Source: Ruegeria sediminis
Lineage (GTDB): Bacteria; Pseudomonadota; Alphaproteobacteria; Rhodobacterales; Rhodobacteraceae
Assembly: GCF_005938215.1 (NCBI RefSeq)
Contig: NZ_VCPD01000003.1
Span: 434,001-498,000, forward strand
DNA length: 64,000 nucleotides
Reading direction: 5' to 3'
Position 1 is the first letter of the stretch. Each line of letters starts with the position of its first letter. Position numbers and translations under genes: made by a program. Below the pieces are notes generated by a model, which was not told the origin of the DNA, ran no database searches, and was given only the letters and a program-made list of their open reading frames with translations. Shown here one piece after another: positions 7,110 to 11,554 of this stretch.

Positions 7110-9509
7110 ATGAGCAGTTTCGACGAAACCGACGCCTTCGAAGGCGCATCGCTGTCCGCGCGGGCCATGGCAGCCCGCCCGGCGGCCTACATGGACGACC
7201 TGAACCCGGCGCAGCGCGAGGCGGTCGAGAAACTCGACGGCCCCGTCCTGATGCTGGCGGGCGCGGGGACGGGCAAGACGAAAACGCTCATGGCCCGCGT
7301 TGCTCATCTCATCACCGTCGGGCGAGCGCGGCCGGACCAAATTCTCGCGGTGACCTTTACCAACAAGGCCGCGCAAGACATGAAGAAACGGCTGGCAAAA
7401 ACGCCTTTCAGTTTACAACACCCAATTCCGTGGATGGGCACCTTCCACGCTCTTTCGGCAAAATTGCTGCGCCGCCACGCAGAATTGGTAGATCTAAAAT
7501 CAAATTTCACAATTCTCGACTCCGACGACCAATTGCGCCTGCTCAAGCAACTGGTGCAGGCGGCGAGTATCGACGACAAACGGTGGCCTGTACGTTTGCT
7601 GGCCAACTTCATTGATAATTGGAAGAACCGAGCGCTGGCGCCTGACAAAGTGCCGACAATGGATTCTGATGCCTACAACCACAAGGGCGTCGATCTCTAT
7701 GAACAATACCAGACCCGCCTGCGCGAGCTGAACGCCGTCGATTTCGGCGACCTGCTGCTGCACATGGTCACGATCTTTCAGACCCATCCGGACGTGCTGG
7801 AGCAGTACCAGCGCTGGTTCCGCTACATCCTGGTGGATGAATACCAGGACACCAACGTCGCCCAGTACCTGTGGCTGCGGTTGCTGGCGGGCGGGCACAA
7901 GAACATCTGCTGCGTCGGCGACGACGACCAGTCGATCTATGGCTGGCGCGGCGCCGAGGTCGGCAACATCCTGCGTTTCGAAAAGGACTTTCCCGGCGCG
8001 CATGTGGTGCGGCTCGAGCAGAACTACCGCTCGACCCCGCACATCCTCGCCGCCGCCTCGAACGTCATTCGCGGCAACGAGGGGCGCTTGGGCAAGGAGT
8101 TGTGGACCGAGGCGGAGCAGGGCGAAAAGGTCAGGCTGATCGGCCATTGGGACGGCGAGGAAGAAGCCCGCTGGATCGGCGAAGAGATCGACGCGATGCA
8201 GGGCGGCACGCGGGGCATGCGCCCGATGGCGTTGGACGAAATCGCCATCCTCGTCCGCGCCAGCCACCAGATGCGCGCCTTCGAGGACCGTTTCCTGACC
8301 ATCGGCCTGCCGTACCGCGTAATCGGCGGCCCGCGTTTCTACGAGCGGATGGAGATCCGCGACGCCATGGCCTATTTTCGGCTGGTCGTCAGCCCCGAAG
8401 ACGATCTGGCCTTCGAGCGGATCGTGAACGTGCCCAAGCGCGGCCTTGGCGACAAGGCGCAGCAGACCATCCAGATGACCGCCCGCGCGCATGGCGTGTC
8501 GCTGGTCGAGGGCGCGCGTCTCGCGGTCGAACAGGGGGCGATCAAGGGCAAGGGCGCCGCGGCGCTGCGGCAGCTTGTCGATGATCTGGCCCGCTGGAAC
8601 GCCATGACGCGCGGTCCGCGTATCGAGATCGACGACGATTCGGTGATCGACGACGGCGCCACGCCGGTCCGATATGGCGATCCCGAAACCTCCCACATCG
8701 AACTGGCGCAGATCGTGCTGGACGAATCCGGCTACACCGCCCACTGGCAGAACGACAAAACGCCCGAGGCTCCGGGGCGGCTGGAGAACCTCAAGGAACT
8801 GGTCAAGGCGCTGGAAAGCTTCGAGAACCTGCAAGGGTTCCTCGAGCATGTCAGCCTGATCATGGACAACGACAGCCTGGACGCGGAAAGCAAGGTCTCG
8901 ATCATGACCCTGCACGCCGCCAAGGGCCTCGAATTCCCCGCCGTCTTCCTGCCGGGGTGGGAGGACGGGCTGTTCCCGTCGCAGCGGTCGATGGACGAAT
9001 CCGGCCTCAAGGGCCTCGAAGAGGAACGCCGCCTGGCCTATGTCGGCATCACCCGCGCCGAAGAGGTCTGCACCATCTCCTTCGCCGCCAACCGGCGGGT
9101 GTTCGGGCAATGGCAGAACTCAATGCCCTCGCGCTTCATCGACGAACTGCCCGAGAATCATGTCGAGGTGTTGACGCCGCCGGGCCTCTATGGTGGGGGC
9201 GGCTACAGCACGCCCGGCATCGAGACCCGCGCCGCCGCGGCCAATGTCTACAACTCGCCCGGCTGGAAGCGGATGCAGGCGCGGCAGGGGCAATACGGCA
9301 TGTCGCAGCCGCGCGAAAGCCGCAACACGGTGATCGACCTGGACGCGGTGGCCAGCTTTACCCTGGGCGACCGCGTGTTTCACCAGAAATTCGGTTATGG
9401 CGCGGTCATCGGCATCGAAGGCGACAAGGTCGAGGTGGAATTCGAAAAGGCCGGCACCAAAAAGGTCGTGGCCCGGTTCCTCTCGGCCAGCGACGACGTG
9501 CCGTTCTGA
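7110..9509 (+). CDS. uvrD: ATP-dependent DNA helicase UvrD/PcrA
   Basis: This superfamily 1 3'-5' helicase unwinds DNA in excision repair and clears replication or recombination intermediates. The 799-residue chain has the Q-motif region LNPAQREAV, Walker A AGAGTGKTKT, motif Ia TFTNKAAQDMK, motif II VDEYQDTN, motif III GDDDQSIYGWRGA, motif IV LEQNYRST, motif V LHAAKGLEFP, and motif VI YVGITRAEE. The C-terminus has the Tudor-like VFHQKFGYGAVIGIEG segment that helps PcrA/UvrD bind partners such as RNA polymerase. An SOS box precedes it and a terminator follows. About 7320-7690 is clearly richer in A/T than the rest of the gene. Confidence 0.97.
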   Translation: MSSFDETDAFEGASLSARAMAARPAAYMDDLNPAQREAVEKLDGPVLMLAGAGTGKTKTLMARVAHLITVGRARPDQILAVTFTNKAAQDMKKRLAKTPFSLQHPIPWMGTFHALSAKLLRRHAELVDLKSNFTILDSDDQLRLLKQLVQAASIDDKRWPVRLLANFIDNWKNRALAPDKVPTMDSDAYNHKGVDLYEQYQTRLRELNAVDFGDLLLHMVTIFQTHPDVLEQYQRWFRYILVDEYQDTNVAQYLWLRLLAGGHKNICCVGDDDQSIYGWRGAEVGNILRFEKDFPGAHVVRLEQNYRSTPHILAAASNVIRGNEGRLGKELWTEAEQGEKVRLIGHWDGEEEARWIGEEIDAMQGGTRGMRPMALDEIAILVRASHQMRAFEDRFLTIGLPYRVIGGPRFYERMEIRDAMAYFRLVVSPEDDLAFERIVNVPKRGLGDKAQQTIQMTARAHGVSLVEGARLAVEQGAIKGKGAAALRQLVDDLARWNAMTRGPRIEIDDDSVIDDGATPVRYGDPETSHIELAQIVLDESGYTAHWQNDKTPEAPGRLENLKELVKALESFENLQGFLEHVSLIMDNDSLDAESKVSIMTLHAAKGLEFPAVFLPGWEDGLFPSQRSMDESGLKGLEEERRLAYVGITRAEEVCTISFAANRRVFGQWQNSMPSRFIDELPENHVEVLTPPGLYGGGGYSTPGIETRAAAANVYNSPGWKRMQARQGQYGMSQPRESRNTVIDLDAVASFTLGDRVFHQKFGYGAVIGIEGDKVEVEFEKAGTKKVVARFLSASDDVPF

Positions 9510-9577: not shown

Positions 9578-9589
9578 CATGCGCGTCCC

Positions 9590-9638
9590 AAAAAAACAGA
9601 AACGGCGGTTCCCAGGGAGGAGGAGGGGAACCGCCGTT
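9590..9638 (-). terminator. Cuckoo/CcsR-type hairpin 6, also the Rho-independent terminator of the operon
   Basis: A perfect 13-bp stem (9601-9613 with 9626-9638) carries the CUCCUCCUCCCU loop. On the minus strand it is followed after four bases by seven U residues (plus-strand A-run 9590-9596). The last motif hairpin therefore also terminates the DUF1127 and small-RNA transcript. Confidence 0.88.
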
Positions 9639-9649
9639 CTTTGCAACAC

Positions 9650-9674
9650 CGGATCAGGGAGGAGGAGAGACCCG
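9650..9674 (-). ncRNA. Cuckoo/CcsR-type hairpin 5
   Basis: A 6-bp stem (9650-9655 with 9669-9674) surrounds the conserved loop. One position is an A-C mismatch if the plus strand is transcribed but becomes a permissible U-G pair on the minus strand, which supports the minus strand as the functional one. A spacer hairpin (9687-9691 with 9698-9702) lies between it and hairpin 4. Confidence 0.82.
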
Positions 9675-9711
9675 ATGTATCCGAACCCGGGTTTCATCCC
9701 GGTATGAAGGT

Positions 9712-9748
9712 CGCGGCGATGCCAGGGAGGAGGAGAGGCATCGCCGCG
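9712..9748 (-). ncRNA. Cuckoo/CcsR-type hairpin 4
   Basis: A perfect 12-bp GC-rich stem (9712-9723 with 9737-9748) has a 13-base loop containing CCUCCUCCC. It pairs with hairpin 3 to form the second dimeric unit. Confidence 0.88.
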
Positions 9749-9757
9749 CGCTTGCAA

Positions 9758-9786
9758 CACCGGGTAGGGAGGAGGAGAACCCGGTG
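9758..9786 (-). ncRNA. Cuckoo/CcsR-type hairpin 3
   Basis: A perfect 8-bp stem (9758-9765 with 9779-9786) has a 13-base loop containing CCUCCUCCC. A motif-less spacer hairpin (9796-9800 with 9808-9812) separates it from hairpin 2. Confidence 0.88.
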
Positions 9787-9820
9787 TATCAGCGTCCGGC
9801 TTTCGGGGCCGGTATGACGT

Positions 9821-9854
9821 GCGGCGGCATCAGGGAGGAGGAGGATGCCGCCGC
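9821..9854 (-). ncRNA. Cuckoo/CcsR-type hairpin 2
   Basis: A perfect 11-bp stem (9821-9831 with 9844-9854) carries the 12-base CUCCUCCUCCCU loop on the minus strand. It forms the first dimeric unit with hairpin 1. Confidence 0.88.
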
Positions 9855-9863
9855 CAAGTTTCA

Positions 9864-9890
9864 GACCCTCCAGGGAGGAGGAGAAGGGTC
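9864..9890 (-). ncRNA. Cuckoo/CcsR-type hairpin 1 (nearest the DUF1127 gene)
   Basis: A 6-bp stem (9864-9869 with 9885-9890) encloses a 15-base loop containing CCUCCUCCC on the minus strand. It begins 24 bases after the DUF1127 stop codon. This is the weakest stem of the six. Confidence 0.8.
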
Positions 9891-9913
9891 CGATCCCGTG
9901 TATTCCTTCGCGC

Positions 9914-10138
9914 TCAGCGCGCGGTGAAGTCTTCTGCCGCCTGCAGGGCCACGCGCCGGATCATCGACCGGTGCAGACCCAGGTCCGCCAGGTCGCGCGT
10001 CGACAGGGCCGACAGCTCGTTGACGGTCTGGCGATACACCCTGTGACGGGTGTAGCGGGCTTTGGCGGCCTCGATCAGAGAGGAGAGGCCGGCGAAAAAT
10101 GTGCCTTTATGGGCCGTGTGGTCGCTTATGACAGCCAT
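9914..10138 (-). CDS. ccaF1: DUF1127 small basic protein (CcaF1-like)
   Basis: This 74-residue basic protein has the DUF1127 signature at its C-terminus: a YRQTVNELSALSTRDLADLGL segment followed by a basic IRRVA tail. Small DUF1127 proteins are arginine-rich and probably bind RNA. In R. sphaeroides the homologue encoded ahead of the CcsR RNAs (CcaF1) was reported to affect small-RNA processing, and the same arrangement is seen here. The ATG at 10138 follows AGGTTACTACC; a longer in-frame start at 10261 would add unrelated sequence. The transcript continues into the six hairpins and stops at 9590. The symbol rests on synteny plus family membership, not on a database comparison. Confidence 0.85.
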   Translation of the reverse strand: MAVISDHTAHKGTFFAGLSSLIEAAKARYTRHRVYRQTVNELSALSTRDLADLGLHRSMIRRVALQAAEDFTAR

Positions 10139-10195: not shown

Positions 10196-10223
10196 AAAAT
10201 AAGCGATTGCTGCGGCTGCACAA
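10196..10223 (-). promoter_or_regulatory. Candidate promoter of the DUF1127/small-RNA operon
   Basis: On the minus strand, TTGTGC (plus 10218-10223), 16 bases, then TATTTT (plus 10196-10201) resembles a housekeeping promoter and would give a leader of about 50 bases. The R. sphaeroides operon is reported to use alternative heat-shock sigma factors, so the real start may differ. Confidence 0.3.
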
Positions 10224-10800
10224 TGGGGGACGTGATCAATGCTGCTATGCAGCAAATGCATGGATTGGTTGGAGAATTCCGGAGGCGCCCGGAAAGGCCA
10301 AGAAAGGTTGACGTTTTGGGCAACATGCGGATTTGGTTGCCGTTAGGGCACCAGAGGGCCGAAAAGAACCTTGCCCGTGTCTTGGGCGCCCTGCATATCG
10401 ATTGAGCTTGACACGGATCGGCGTTTTGCAGCGCCGGAATCGCGGGCGGGAAATCATGGGACGAATGCGCGGCCTGTCCGAATGAATGCTCCGCTCCCCA
10501 GGTTTCAGCAGAGGAAACCCGGGTGATTCGCCGGAGATTTTGGGCCGACACGGGGTGCAAAGGCGGAAATTCCTTGTTCGAAGCGAATTTTCCGGGAATT
10601 CATGGGACAAATTTCGGCGCAAGGGTTTCTTGCTATATGTTGTGTCGGTTTTCGGACTGATAACAACAAGTGCCACATTTTTGTCCGAAGCACTTGAAAA
10701 ACACAGTATCCATTGGGCGTTCAGATGCGCCTGTTCTGAACTTTTCCCCAAAATACCTGTTGATTTCCATGAATTCCCATGTCATCCCTAATACATCCGA
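10224..10800. other. Non-coding region between divergent small-RNA loci
   Basis: I see no convincing gene in these 577 bases. The short open frames have no Shine-Dalgarno sequence and no recognisable product. The region becomes A/T-richer after about 10560. It holds an extended -10-like TGCTATATG (10631-10639) and a near-exact 13-base direct repeat around CATGGGAC (10454-10466 and 10600-10612). A TAATAC (10789-10794) is positioned to give a leader of about 250 bases before mraZ. All are candidate control sites for the mraZ leader. Confidence 0.4.
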
Positions 10801-11001
10801 TGAGGACGAGGCGACCGGGGCACCAAACGACCCCAACCAAAAACAAACAGGTTTCATACAGGCATCTCGCTTTCATCAGACCAAGAGATCCGGCGCGCGG
10901 GCGAGCAGACATCCCCCCAGGTGGCGCGCGCAGCTGGACATCCCGCAAAGCGGGCAAATGCGGCGGGTTGATCGGTGGCAGCAGATCAACCCGCCGTTTT
11001 T
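10801..11001 (+). ncRNA. UpsM-like small RNA from the mraZ leader (5' end approximate)
   Basis: The dcw cluster is preceded by a long untranslated leader with a strong internal terminator (10961-11001). This is the arrangement described in R. sphaeroides, where an extended mraZ 5' UTR of roughly 270 bases is partly terminated to give the UpsM small RNA, reported as a Rhodobacteraceae feature. Small hairpins precede the terminator, for example 10942-10946 with 10950-10954. The 3' end is well defined by the terminator. The 5' end is inferred from a TAATAC element at 10789-10794 and is uncertain by many bases. Confidence 0.7.
10961..11001 (+). terminator. Leader terminator upstream of mraZ (3' end of UpsM-like RNA)
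   Basis: A perfect 13-bp stem (10961-10973 with 10984-10996, 10-base loop) is followed directly by five T residues (10997-11001), 49 bases before the mraZ start. All dcw transcripts from the leader promoter must read through it, so it is a control point for the whole cluster. Confidence 0.93.
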
Positions 11002-11050
11002 AACTCCGGGGGCGGAATTTTTAGGGGCGCAAGCGAAAGGGACTCTCGTC

Positions 11051-11554
11051 TTGGCGCGCAGGTTCAGAGGCGAAAGCCACCACAAGGTGGACAGCAAGGG
11101 CAGGGTGTCGATCCCGGCCTCGTTTCGCCGTGTGCTCGAAGCCGGCGACCCCAACTGGCAATCCGGCGGCAACCCCGAACTTGTGATCGTCTACGGCGAC
11201 CACCGCCGGAAATTCCTGGAATGCTACACCATGGAGGCGATCGACGAGGTCGACGCCAAGATCGACGCGCTGCCGCGCGGCTCGATGGAGCGCAAGGCCC
11301 TGCAGCGCATGTTTCACGGGCAGTCCTTTCCCACCAACGTGGACGAAACCGGGCGCCTGGTGCTGCCGGCCAAGCTGCGCGACAAGATCGCGCTCGAGGG
11401 TGAGGCGTTTTTCATCGCCGCCGGCGACACCTTCCAGATCTGGAAACCCGAGACCTATGAGACCGAGGAAATGGTCAAGGCCGAACAGTGGATGGCGGAT
11501 CAGGGCGACGATTTCGACCCGATGCAGTTCCTCGACGGTCCGGGGGGCACGTGA
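11051..11554 (+). CDS. mraZ: Transcriptional regulator MraZ
   Basis: MraZ is the first gene of the dcw cluster and a ring-forming DNA-binding protein with two SpoVT/AbrB-like halves. Both signature loops are visible: [14 protein letters not shown] near residue 15 and [16 protein letters not shown] near residue 95. The product is 167 residues from a TTG start at 11051, where the family usually begins (ARRFRGES), with AAAGGGA at 11036-11042 as ribosome site. No ATG lies at a suitable position. The stop is followed by the rsmH start after four bases. In other bacteria MraZ represses its own operon through TGGG-type repeats; I did not find a clear triple repeat upstream. Confidence 0.95.

Follow-up and report, generated by a model that had tools for sequence, protein, structure and literature searches.

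On the minus strand of the 64,000-nt stretch of Ruegeria sediminis DNA analysed here (the window), a small protein gene is followed by a series of hairpins. This raises the questions of which molecule is under selection, which known RNA it resembles and whether six hairpins are an expanded version of the four CcsR RNAs of Rhodobacter sphaeroides, as a first-pass annotation had proposed. The motif CTCCTCCTCCCT was found in six exact copies on the minus strand (9614–9883) and in none on the other strand. Six copies were reached in 0 of 100 dinucleotide shuffles of the window, which contained 0.34 on average (one mismatch allowed). Each of the six loops closes a stem, with 9 to 14 pairs called per stem when G-U pairs are counted, and the region 9580–9910 folds with −160.8 kcal/mol compared with −116.6 (sd 5.2) in shuffles (z −8.5; 0 of 100 as good). 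The shuffle counts and the folding score rule out chance or a low-complexity repeat, and they confirm the six tandem minus-strand hairpins with identical loops that had been described.

All six loops read CCUCCUCCC, which holds the ribosome's own anti-Shine-Dalgarno (aSD) core and extends it, in agreement with the earlier description of the loop. Adjacent hairpins with a shared loop on variable but paired stems, as found here, mark the cuckoo/CcsR-like RNAs. The stems are of two alternating related types: those of H3 and H5 (Table 1) have ACA(C/T)CGGG in common, while a CGGCG core is common to H2, H4 and H6.

Table 1. Positions of the features discussed in the text, in window coordinates.
Feature	Position	Strand	Basis or remark
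UvrD/PcrA-type helicase	7110-9509	+	converging on array
U-rich tract	9590-9602	-	from sequence; directly after H6
CcsR-like unit 3 (H5 + H6)	9597-9681	-	Rfam CcsR1 33.4 bits, E 5.9e-6
H6	9600-9639	-	aSD hairpin
H5	9646-9678	-	aSD hairpin
Plain spacer hairpin, units 2/3 (CCGGG/CCCGG)	9687-9702	-	no aSD motif
CcsR-like unit 2 (H3 + H4)	9708-9793	-	Rfam CcsR1 39.7 bits, E 8.1e-8
H4	9712-9748	-	aSD hairpin
H3	9757-9787	-	aSD hairpin
Plain spacer hairpin, units 1/2 (CCGGC/GCCGG)	9796-9812	-	no aSD motif
CcsR-like unit 1 (H1 + H2)	9816-9896	-	Rfam CcsR1 39.6 bits, E 8.6e-8
H2	9821-9854	-	aSD hairpin
H1	9861-9893	-	aSD hairpin
ccaF1-like gene, 74-aa DUF1127 protein	9914-10138	-	PF06568 E 5.7e-15
RpoH-like promoter, TTGTGCA-N14-TTATTTT	10196-10223	-	conserved block in alignment of 55 upstream regions
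CTGCATAGCAG element, within TGCTGCATAGCAGCA (10240-10254)	10242-10252	-	fits CTGCNNNGCAG
mraZ	10670-11554 (longest open frame)	+	diverging from operon

For the covariation analysis, the window was aligned with 34 of the 54 Ruegeria-like loci (L057 to L110; Ruegeria or near neighbours) of our named set, which comprises the best 80 of 169 relatives with loci found through the DUF1127 protein; only loci with exactly six called hairpins entered these 35 rows. Of 2427 cells in the six-hairpin arrays, 98.6% pair. Double-sided changes occurred in 22 of 70 pairs, compared with 10.4 in shuffles (0 of 500 as high) and 1 to 7 in slid versions of the alignment. From the alignment alone, RNAalifold returned the same eight helices and one further helix of three pairs. 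The stems had been called unrelated and compensated; compensation is supported by the double-sided changes, and the shared stem sequences given above show that they are not unrelated. The exact loop was present in 199 of the 210 hairpins. Column identity was 98.9% in loops, 91.6% in stems and 85.4% elsewhere, so that random loop variation among close relatives, which we looked for, was not seen, yet possession of six hairpins had been the criterion for the rows, and some species show decay of individual loops.

An A-C mismatch on the array strand corresponds to a G-U pair on the other strand, and the ratio of the two within stems therefore tells which strand is selected. Among 372 distinct hairpins of the 80 named loci, 282 G-U pairs were counted against 27 A-C mismatches; the hairpin caller rewards G-U and so favours this count, though not tenfold. 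The family set added 313 hairpins, with counts of 253 and 46. This excess indicates, on the evidence of the sequences, that the minus-strand RNA is the molecule under selection, as the annotation had suggested. The tandem units, each about 110 bp long and present in different numbers in different species, might also be read as a DNA-level repeat, or as protein-binding inverted repeats not selected as RNA. The G-U excess on the array strand (about tenfold for the named loci, fivefold for the family set), the compensatory changes, the promoter pattern before the array and the U tract after it already contradict this explanation, whose probability we regard as negligible.

On the minus strand, the order of elements is upstream element, promoter-like site, DUF1127 gene, six-hairpin array (9600–9893) and U tract. 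H1 starts 20 nt past the DUF1127 open reading frame on the same strand, which is the arrangement of cuckoo/CcsR-like RNAs. The array is thus the apparent end of an operon formed by the RpoH-like promoter, the ccaF1-like gene, the array and the U tract. The promoter pattern was found in 68 of the 80 named loci compared with 0.04 per 80 letter-shuffled upstream regions, and in 30 of 58 family loci; TTG at −35 and TAT at −12 are given as the marks of RpoHI/RpoHII promoters in the part of PMC10673084 consulted. A T-run follows H6 in most rows of the Ruegeria-like alignment (by eye), and the U tract with H6 as its stem is likely to be an intrinsic terminator, judging from its composition.

The DUF1127 protein had a match in all 37 same-genus genomes (own included), in 265 of 295 family genomes and, at the threshold used, in 0 of 24 genomes of other families in the class. 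At least two exact-loop hairpins lay behind its orthologue in 37 of 37 same-genus loci. The host genome has seven DUF1127 matches but one array. A coding N-terminal extension upstream of 10138 was rejected, though the frame in the window is open from 10261, because, in the 33 Ruegeria-like loci that have it, the CTGC element lies 111, 113, 114, 115 or 116 nt from the start, which covers all three frames. DUF1127 proteins elsewhere act otherwise, for example by the PhoR binding reported in PMC12501420.

The position of the array directly 3′ of the gene in the loci examined (which were also found that way) and the U tract after the last hairpin would suit a 3′-UTR device as well: the hairpins would guard the ccaF1-like transcript against 3′ exonucleases or set the timing of its degradation, and the loops would act on nothing else. 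Such protection needs stems and not an invariant 9-nt loop, and it is the loops that are the more conserved (98.9% versus 91.6% identity). Moreover, discrete CcsR RNAs cut out by RNase E are described for R. sphaeroides in PMC7866481, as far as the excerpt goes. We consider a purely protective role very unlikely.

To define the repeat, the array was compared with Rfam CcsR1 (RF02791), a model of 83 nt and two hairpins with a gathering score of 65.3 bits. The covariance-model search that the annotation had recommended gave a mixed result: three non-overlapping two-hairpin matches were obtained (E 8e-8 to 6e-6), and all of them are below the gathering score. As the Rfam scores lie under the curated cut-offs, the array was filed under the wider cuckoo/CcsR kind and not as a member of RF02791. 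Between the matched units lie two plain hairpins, which are kept among the 35 sequences: the one between units 1 and 2 has 99.4% of its cells paired and no pair with a double-sided change, and the one between units 2 and 3 has 100% paired and a double-sided change in 1 of 5 pairs. Across the 80 named loci the median spacing alternates between 42 nt inside a pair and 67 nt between pairs, and of 231 long spacers in relatives, 227 fold more stably than their shuffles do on average, a count in which some spacers contain an uncalled aSD hairpin. From the three CcsR1 matches, the kept plain hairpins, the alternating spacing and the spacer folding it follows that the array repeats, and evolves, in units of two aSD hairpins and one plain spacer hairpin.

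The two-hairpin unit itself rests on the CcsR1 matches and on PMC3927594, which in its section 2.7 describes RS0680a as two stem loops; CcsR1-4 are the former RSs0680a-d (PMC5036791, in part). Four CcsR RNAs of two hairpins each therefore mean eight loops, not four, and the six loops of the window correspond to three units. The idea that six is an expanded version of four thus does not hold, and what began as an observation on raw sequence is settled as a known kind of small RNA, neither enlarged nor a new system. The relationship to CcsR and cuckoo RNAs as such, proposed in the annotation, is supported by the CcsR1 match (E 8e-8, below the cut-off), the DUF1127 synteny, the covariation and the literature. 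In R. sphaeroides as in the window, a DUF1127 gene (there ccaF1, RSP_6037) is followed on the same strand by tandem two-hairpin CCUCCUCCC units, and both loci have an RpoH-like promoter pattern (layout according to the excerpt of PMC10253847). They differ in having four and three units, respectively, in the score of the window below the Rfam cut-off and in protein length, with 74 aa in the window and 71 aa for CcaF1 (PMC10253847, same excerpt).

Other families resemble the array less closely. The alpha-r14 RNAs of Rhizobiales (SmelA075, SmelA099, NfeR1; RF02344) also carry one loop on every hairpin with variable paired stems, according to the sections of PMC3927594 and PMC10746234 consulted. 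They differ in that a single RNA holds three or four hairpins side by side and a genome has several copies, whereas the window has a single locus in which plain hairpins separate the two-hairpin units; matches to the RF02344 model (ar14) reached 50.5, 40.5 and 14 bits, with the cut-off at 58.8. 6C RNA (RF01066; 31.9 bits, E 0.066) likewise has paired hairpins with C-rich loops, but the score is below its cut-off of 47 and its consensus loops are CCCCCC, not CCUCCUCCC. Identities as 6C RNA or Scr3202 were rejected, the Rfam matches being weak and below cut-off.

Hairpin numbers in relatives were more often even than odd. The 54 Ruegeria-like named loci had four (1 locus), five (4), six (34), seven (3) or eight (12) hairpins, and six is the Ruegeria norm. 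Over all 80 named loci, 69 counts were even and 11 odd, and every locus had a run of at least three hairpins. A further 60 family loci were hand-picked from the top of the 265-genome match list (59 from other genera, one same-genus). Six well-ranked loci did not enter this set: G104 and G337 because of their position close to the end of a contig, G167 and G322 because of an internal stop, and G115 and G318 by oversight. The 60 loci had 0 to 14 hairpins, with 36 even and 22 odd counts, two loci without an array and at least three hairpins in 56 of 60; the stretches span about 1.7 kb, and long arrays may be cut. As controls in the family loci, three permuted motifs gave 0 sites, while CCCTCCTCC gave 61 (16 with stem) and TCCTCCTCC gave 458 (413 with stem), both being poor controls that overlap C-rich ends or the real loop. 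In L143, L153 and L164, arrays of 14 hairpins show near-constant spacing (38/75, 38/65 and 39/75), which suggests recent amplification or homogenisation of the two-hairpin unit. At least one loop has drifted or was uncalled in the Ruegeria-like loci L088, L068, L092 and L109, with two exact loops of five in L088; single loops may therefore be dispensable.

A CcsR1 match at E ≤ 0.001 was obtained in 243 of 295 family genomes, a lower bound as stricter filters lose weak matches, and in 10 of 295 at the curated cut-off; one of 14 control genomes had a match below the cut-off. The RF02791 cut-off thus misses most of the family, and the model looks too narrow. The best single match (106.2 bits; G111, L197) lies in an array with 14 or more called hairpins. 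In L198 (G171), four matches (104.1, 65.6, 65.3 and 64.3 bits) accompany eight hairpins, and the third-best locus, L199, has nine called hairpins. All three loci encode a 71-aa DUF1127 protein, that of L198 being 45% identical to the protein of the window across residues 18–68.

Structure, strand, covariation, gene order, promoter pattern, conservation and the partition into units were observed here, and we regard the locus as very probably a Ruegeria operon of the ccaF1-CcsR type, encoding three small RNAs that resemble CcsR and have two hairpins each. The array belongs with the known cuckoo/CcsR-like RNAs of the CIN1 locus and most likely works like CcsR. The excerpt of PMC10253847 describes CIN1 as the ccaF1 and CcsR arrangement in alphaproteobacteria, with ccaF1 and CcsR1-4 of R. 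sphaeroides co-transcribed from an RpoHI/RpoHII promoter and cut by RNase E, and CcaF1 as an RNA-binding protein of 71 aa. CcsR levels are set there by RNase E and then PNPase, and northern blots show the discrete RNAs that RNase E cuts from the co-transcript (PMC7866481, in part). Co-transcription, stress expression, processing by RNase E and CcaF1, use of Hfq and repression of targets would carry over to Ruegeria from this homologue. An RpoH-type stress sigma factor would produce one precursor with leader, DUF1127 gene and array, ended by hairpin 6 and the U tract. RNase E, aided by the DUF1127 protein, may cut around the plain spacer hairpins and free three RNAs of about 80 nt with two CCUCCUCCC loops each, and not six processed RNAs of 40–70 nt as had been expected. 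By pairing with the G/A-rich ribosome-binding sites of selected mRNAs, the loops would prevent translation of these mRNAs and alter their decay, and these changes would shift central carbon metabolism under stress.

As a further function, the annotation had named an RNA-protein sponge. The loops would then titrate a protein that binds RNA, either the DUF1127 product itself or another one, with the dose depending on the length of the array. GGA in hairpin loops is the signature of CsrA/RsmA targets. Since CCUCCUCCC is without GGA, the array is not a decoy of the CsrA/RsmA type and departs from CsrB/RsmZ in this respect. A multivalent decoy would be compatible with one shared loop on stems that vary, with the arrays of up to 14 copies seen in other genera and with the RNA binding of R. 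sphaeroides CcaF1 (PMC10253847, in part). Against it, the loop matches extended Shine-Dalgarno sites by exact complementarity, and for the homologue an mRNA target, FlhR, has been reported (PMC8307010, in part). Positive evidence for a protein sponge was not found in this analysis, and we think this role unlikely.

Action of the loops requires extended Shine-Dalgarno sites in the genome, and candidate targets of the CcsR-like RNAs were therefore searched with the pattern GGGAGGAG-N3-9-ATG. It has 26 sites in the genome, one of them on the strand opposite to the array, compared with six for the reversed pattern, a crude control. Twenty sites were inspected, and 16 of them begin a reading frame of 60 codons or more. 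A Pfam scan of ten 60-residue N-termini behind such sites gave ACAS_N (acetyl-CoA synthetase) alone above the cut-off; Thiolase_N, DctQ, PaaA_PaaC and Acyl-CoA_dh_N matched below it, and five N-termini had no match. These sites are candidates and not established targets.

The element upstream of the promoter agrees with CTGCNNNGCAG, which the excerpt of PMC12542648 cites as the sequence bound by PhaR in R. sphaeroides, and is the sole exact match to TGCTGCANNGCAGCA in its own genome. CTGCNNNGCAG was found within 300 nt upstream in 33 of the 54 Ruegeria-like loci, in 17 of the remaining 26 named loci and, over stretches of approximately 420 nt, in 40 of 58 family loci, compared with 0 or 1 for each of eleven same-letter palindrome controls. 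A relaxed form lies exactly 29 nt before the promoter TTG in 58 of 80 named loci (41 CTGCATAGCA, 14 CTGCATAGCG and 3 CTGCATGGCA); among the other 22, three have both at another offset, seven the promoter only, ten the element only and two neither. Element and promoter occur at the 29-nt offset in 15 of 58 family loci. A TGCTGCATAGCAGCA-like element at about −60, a possible site for PhaR or another regulator, is thus present in many ccaF1-like loci of Rhodobacteraceae.

In the same genome, CTGCGGTGCAG lies upstream of a phasin-like gene (Pfam score 24.1, just below the cut-off of 24.9), at about 100 nt by our reading of its start, and ATGCGTTGCAG is located beside phaR on the upstream side. Two points count against PhaR. 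The refined S. meliloti PhaR motif, with the core YGCRNYGCR in the source as far as seen, is matched by the pha sites but not by TGCATAGCA. In addition, the three central letters of the element are nearly fixed, with ATA in 31 of 33, and PhaR would not require ATA. PhaR occurs together with CcsR or CcaF1 in no paper among the literature matches listed. It is conceivable, though on balance doubtful, that PhaR, the regulator of carbon storage, or some unknown factor with the same half-sites has the ccaF1-CcsR operon as a second output, so that stress and polyhydroxybutyrate status jointly set the RNA dose and unit number tunes this dose between species. The conserved element provides a concrete and testable link to carbon storage.

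The 9-mer CCTCCTCCC has 19 sites in the whole genome, six in the array and 13 scattered, and the reversed word has 17; two of the 13 had a stem score above 5 (L004, 6.5; L005, 7). The L005 site is a lone CCTCCTCCC-loop hairpin with a 7-bp stem (L005:1491–1517, plus strand; contig C12 near 321680), whose stretch was found in 0 of 40 other genus genomes. It adjoins the stop codon of a gene whose product resembles, by eye, a periplasmic substrate-binding protein, and it is followed by a terminator-like hairpin and a frame that by eye is ABC-ATPase-like. Elsewhere in the window, two tRNA genes on the minus strand (879–950 and 986–1057) have equal scores and identical sequences and are separated by 35 nt.
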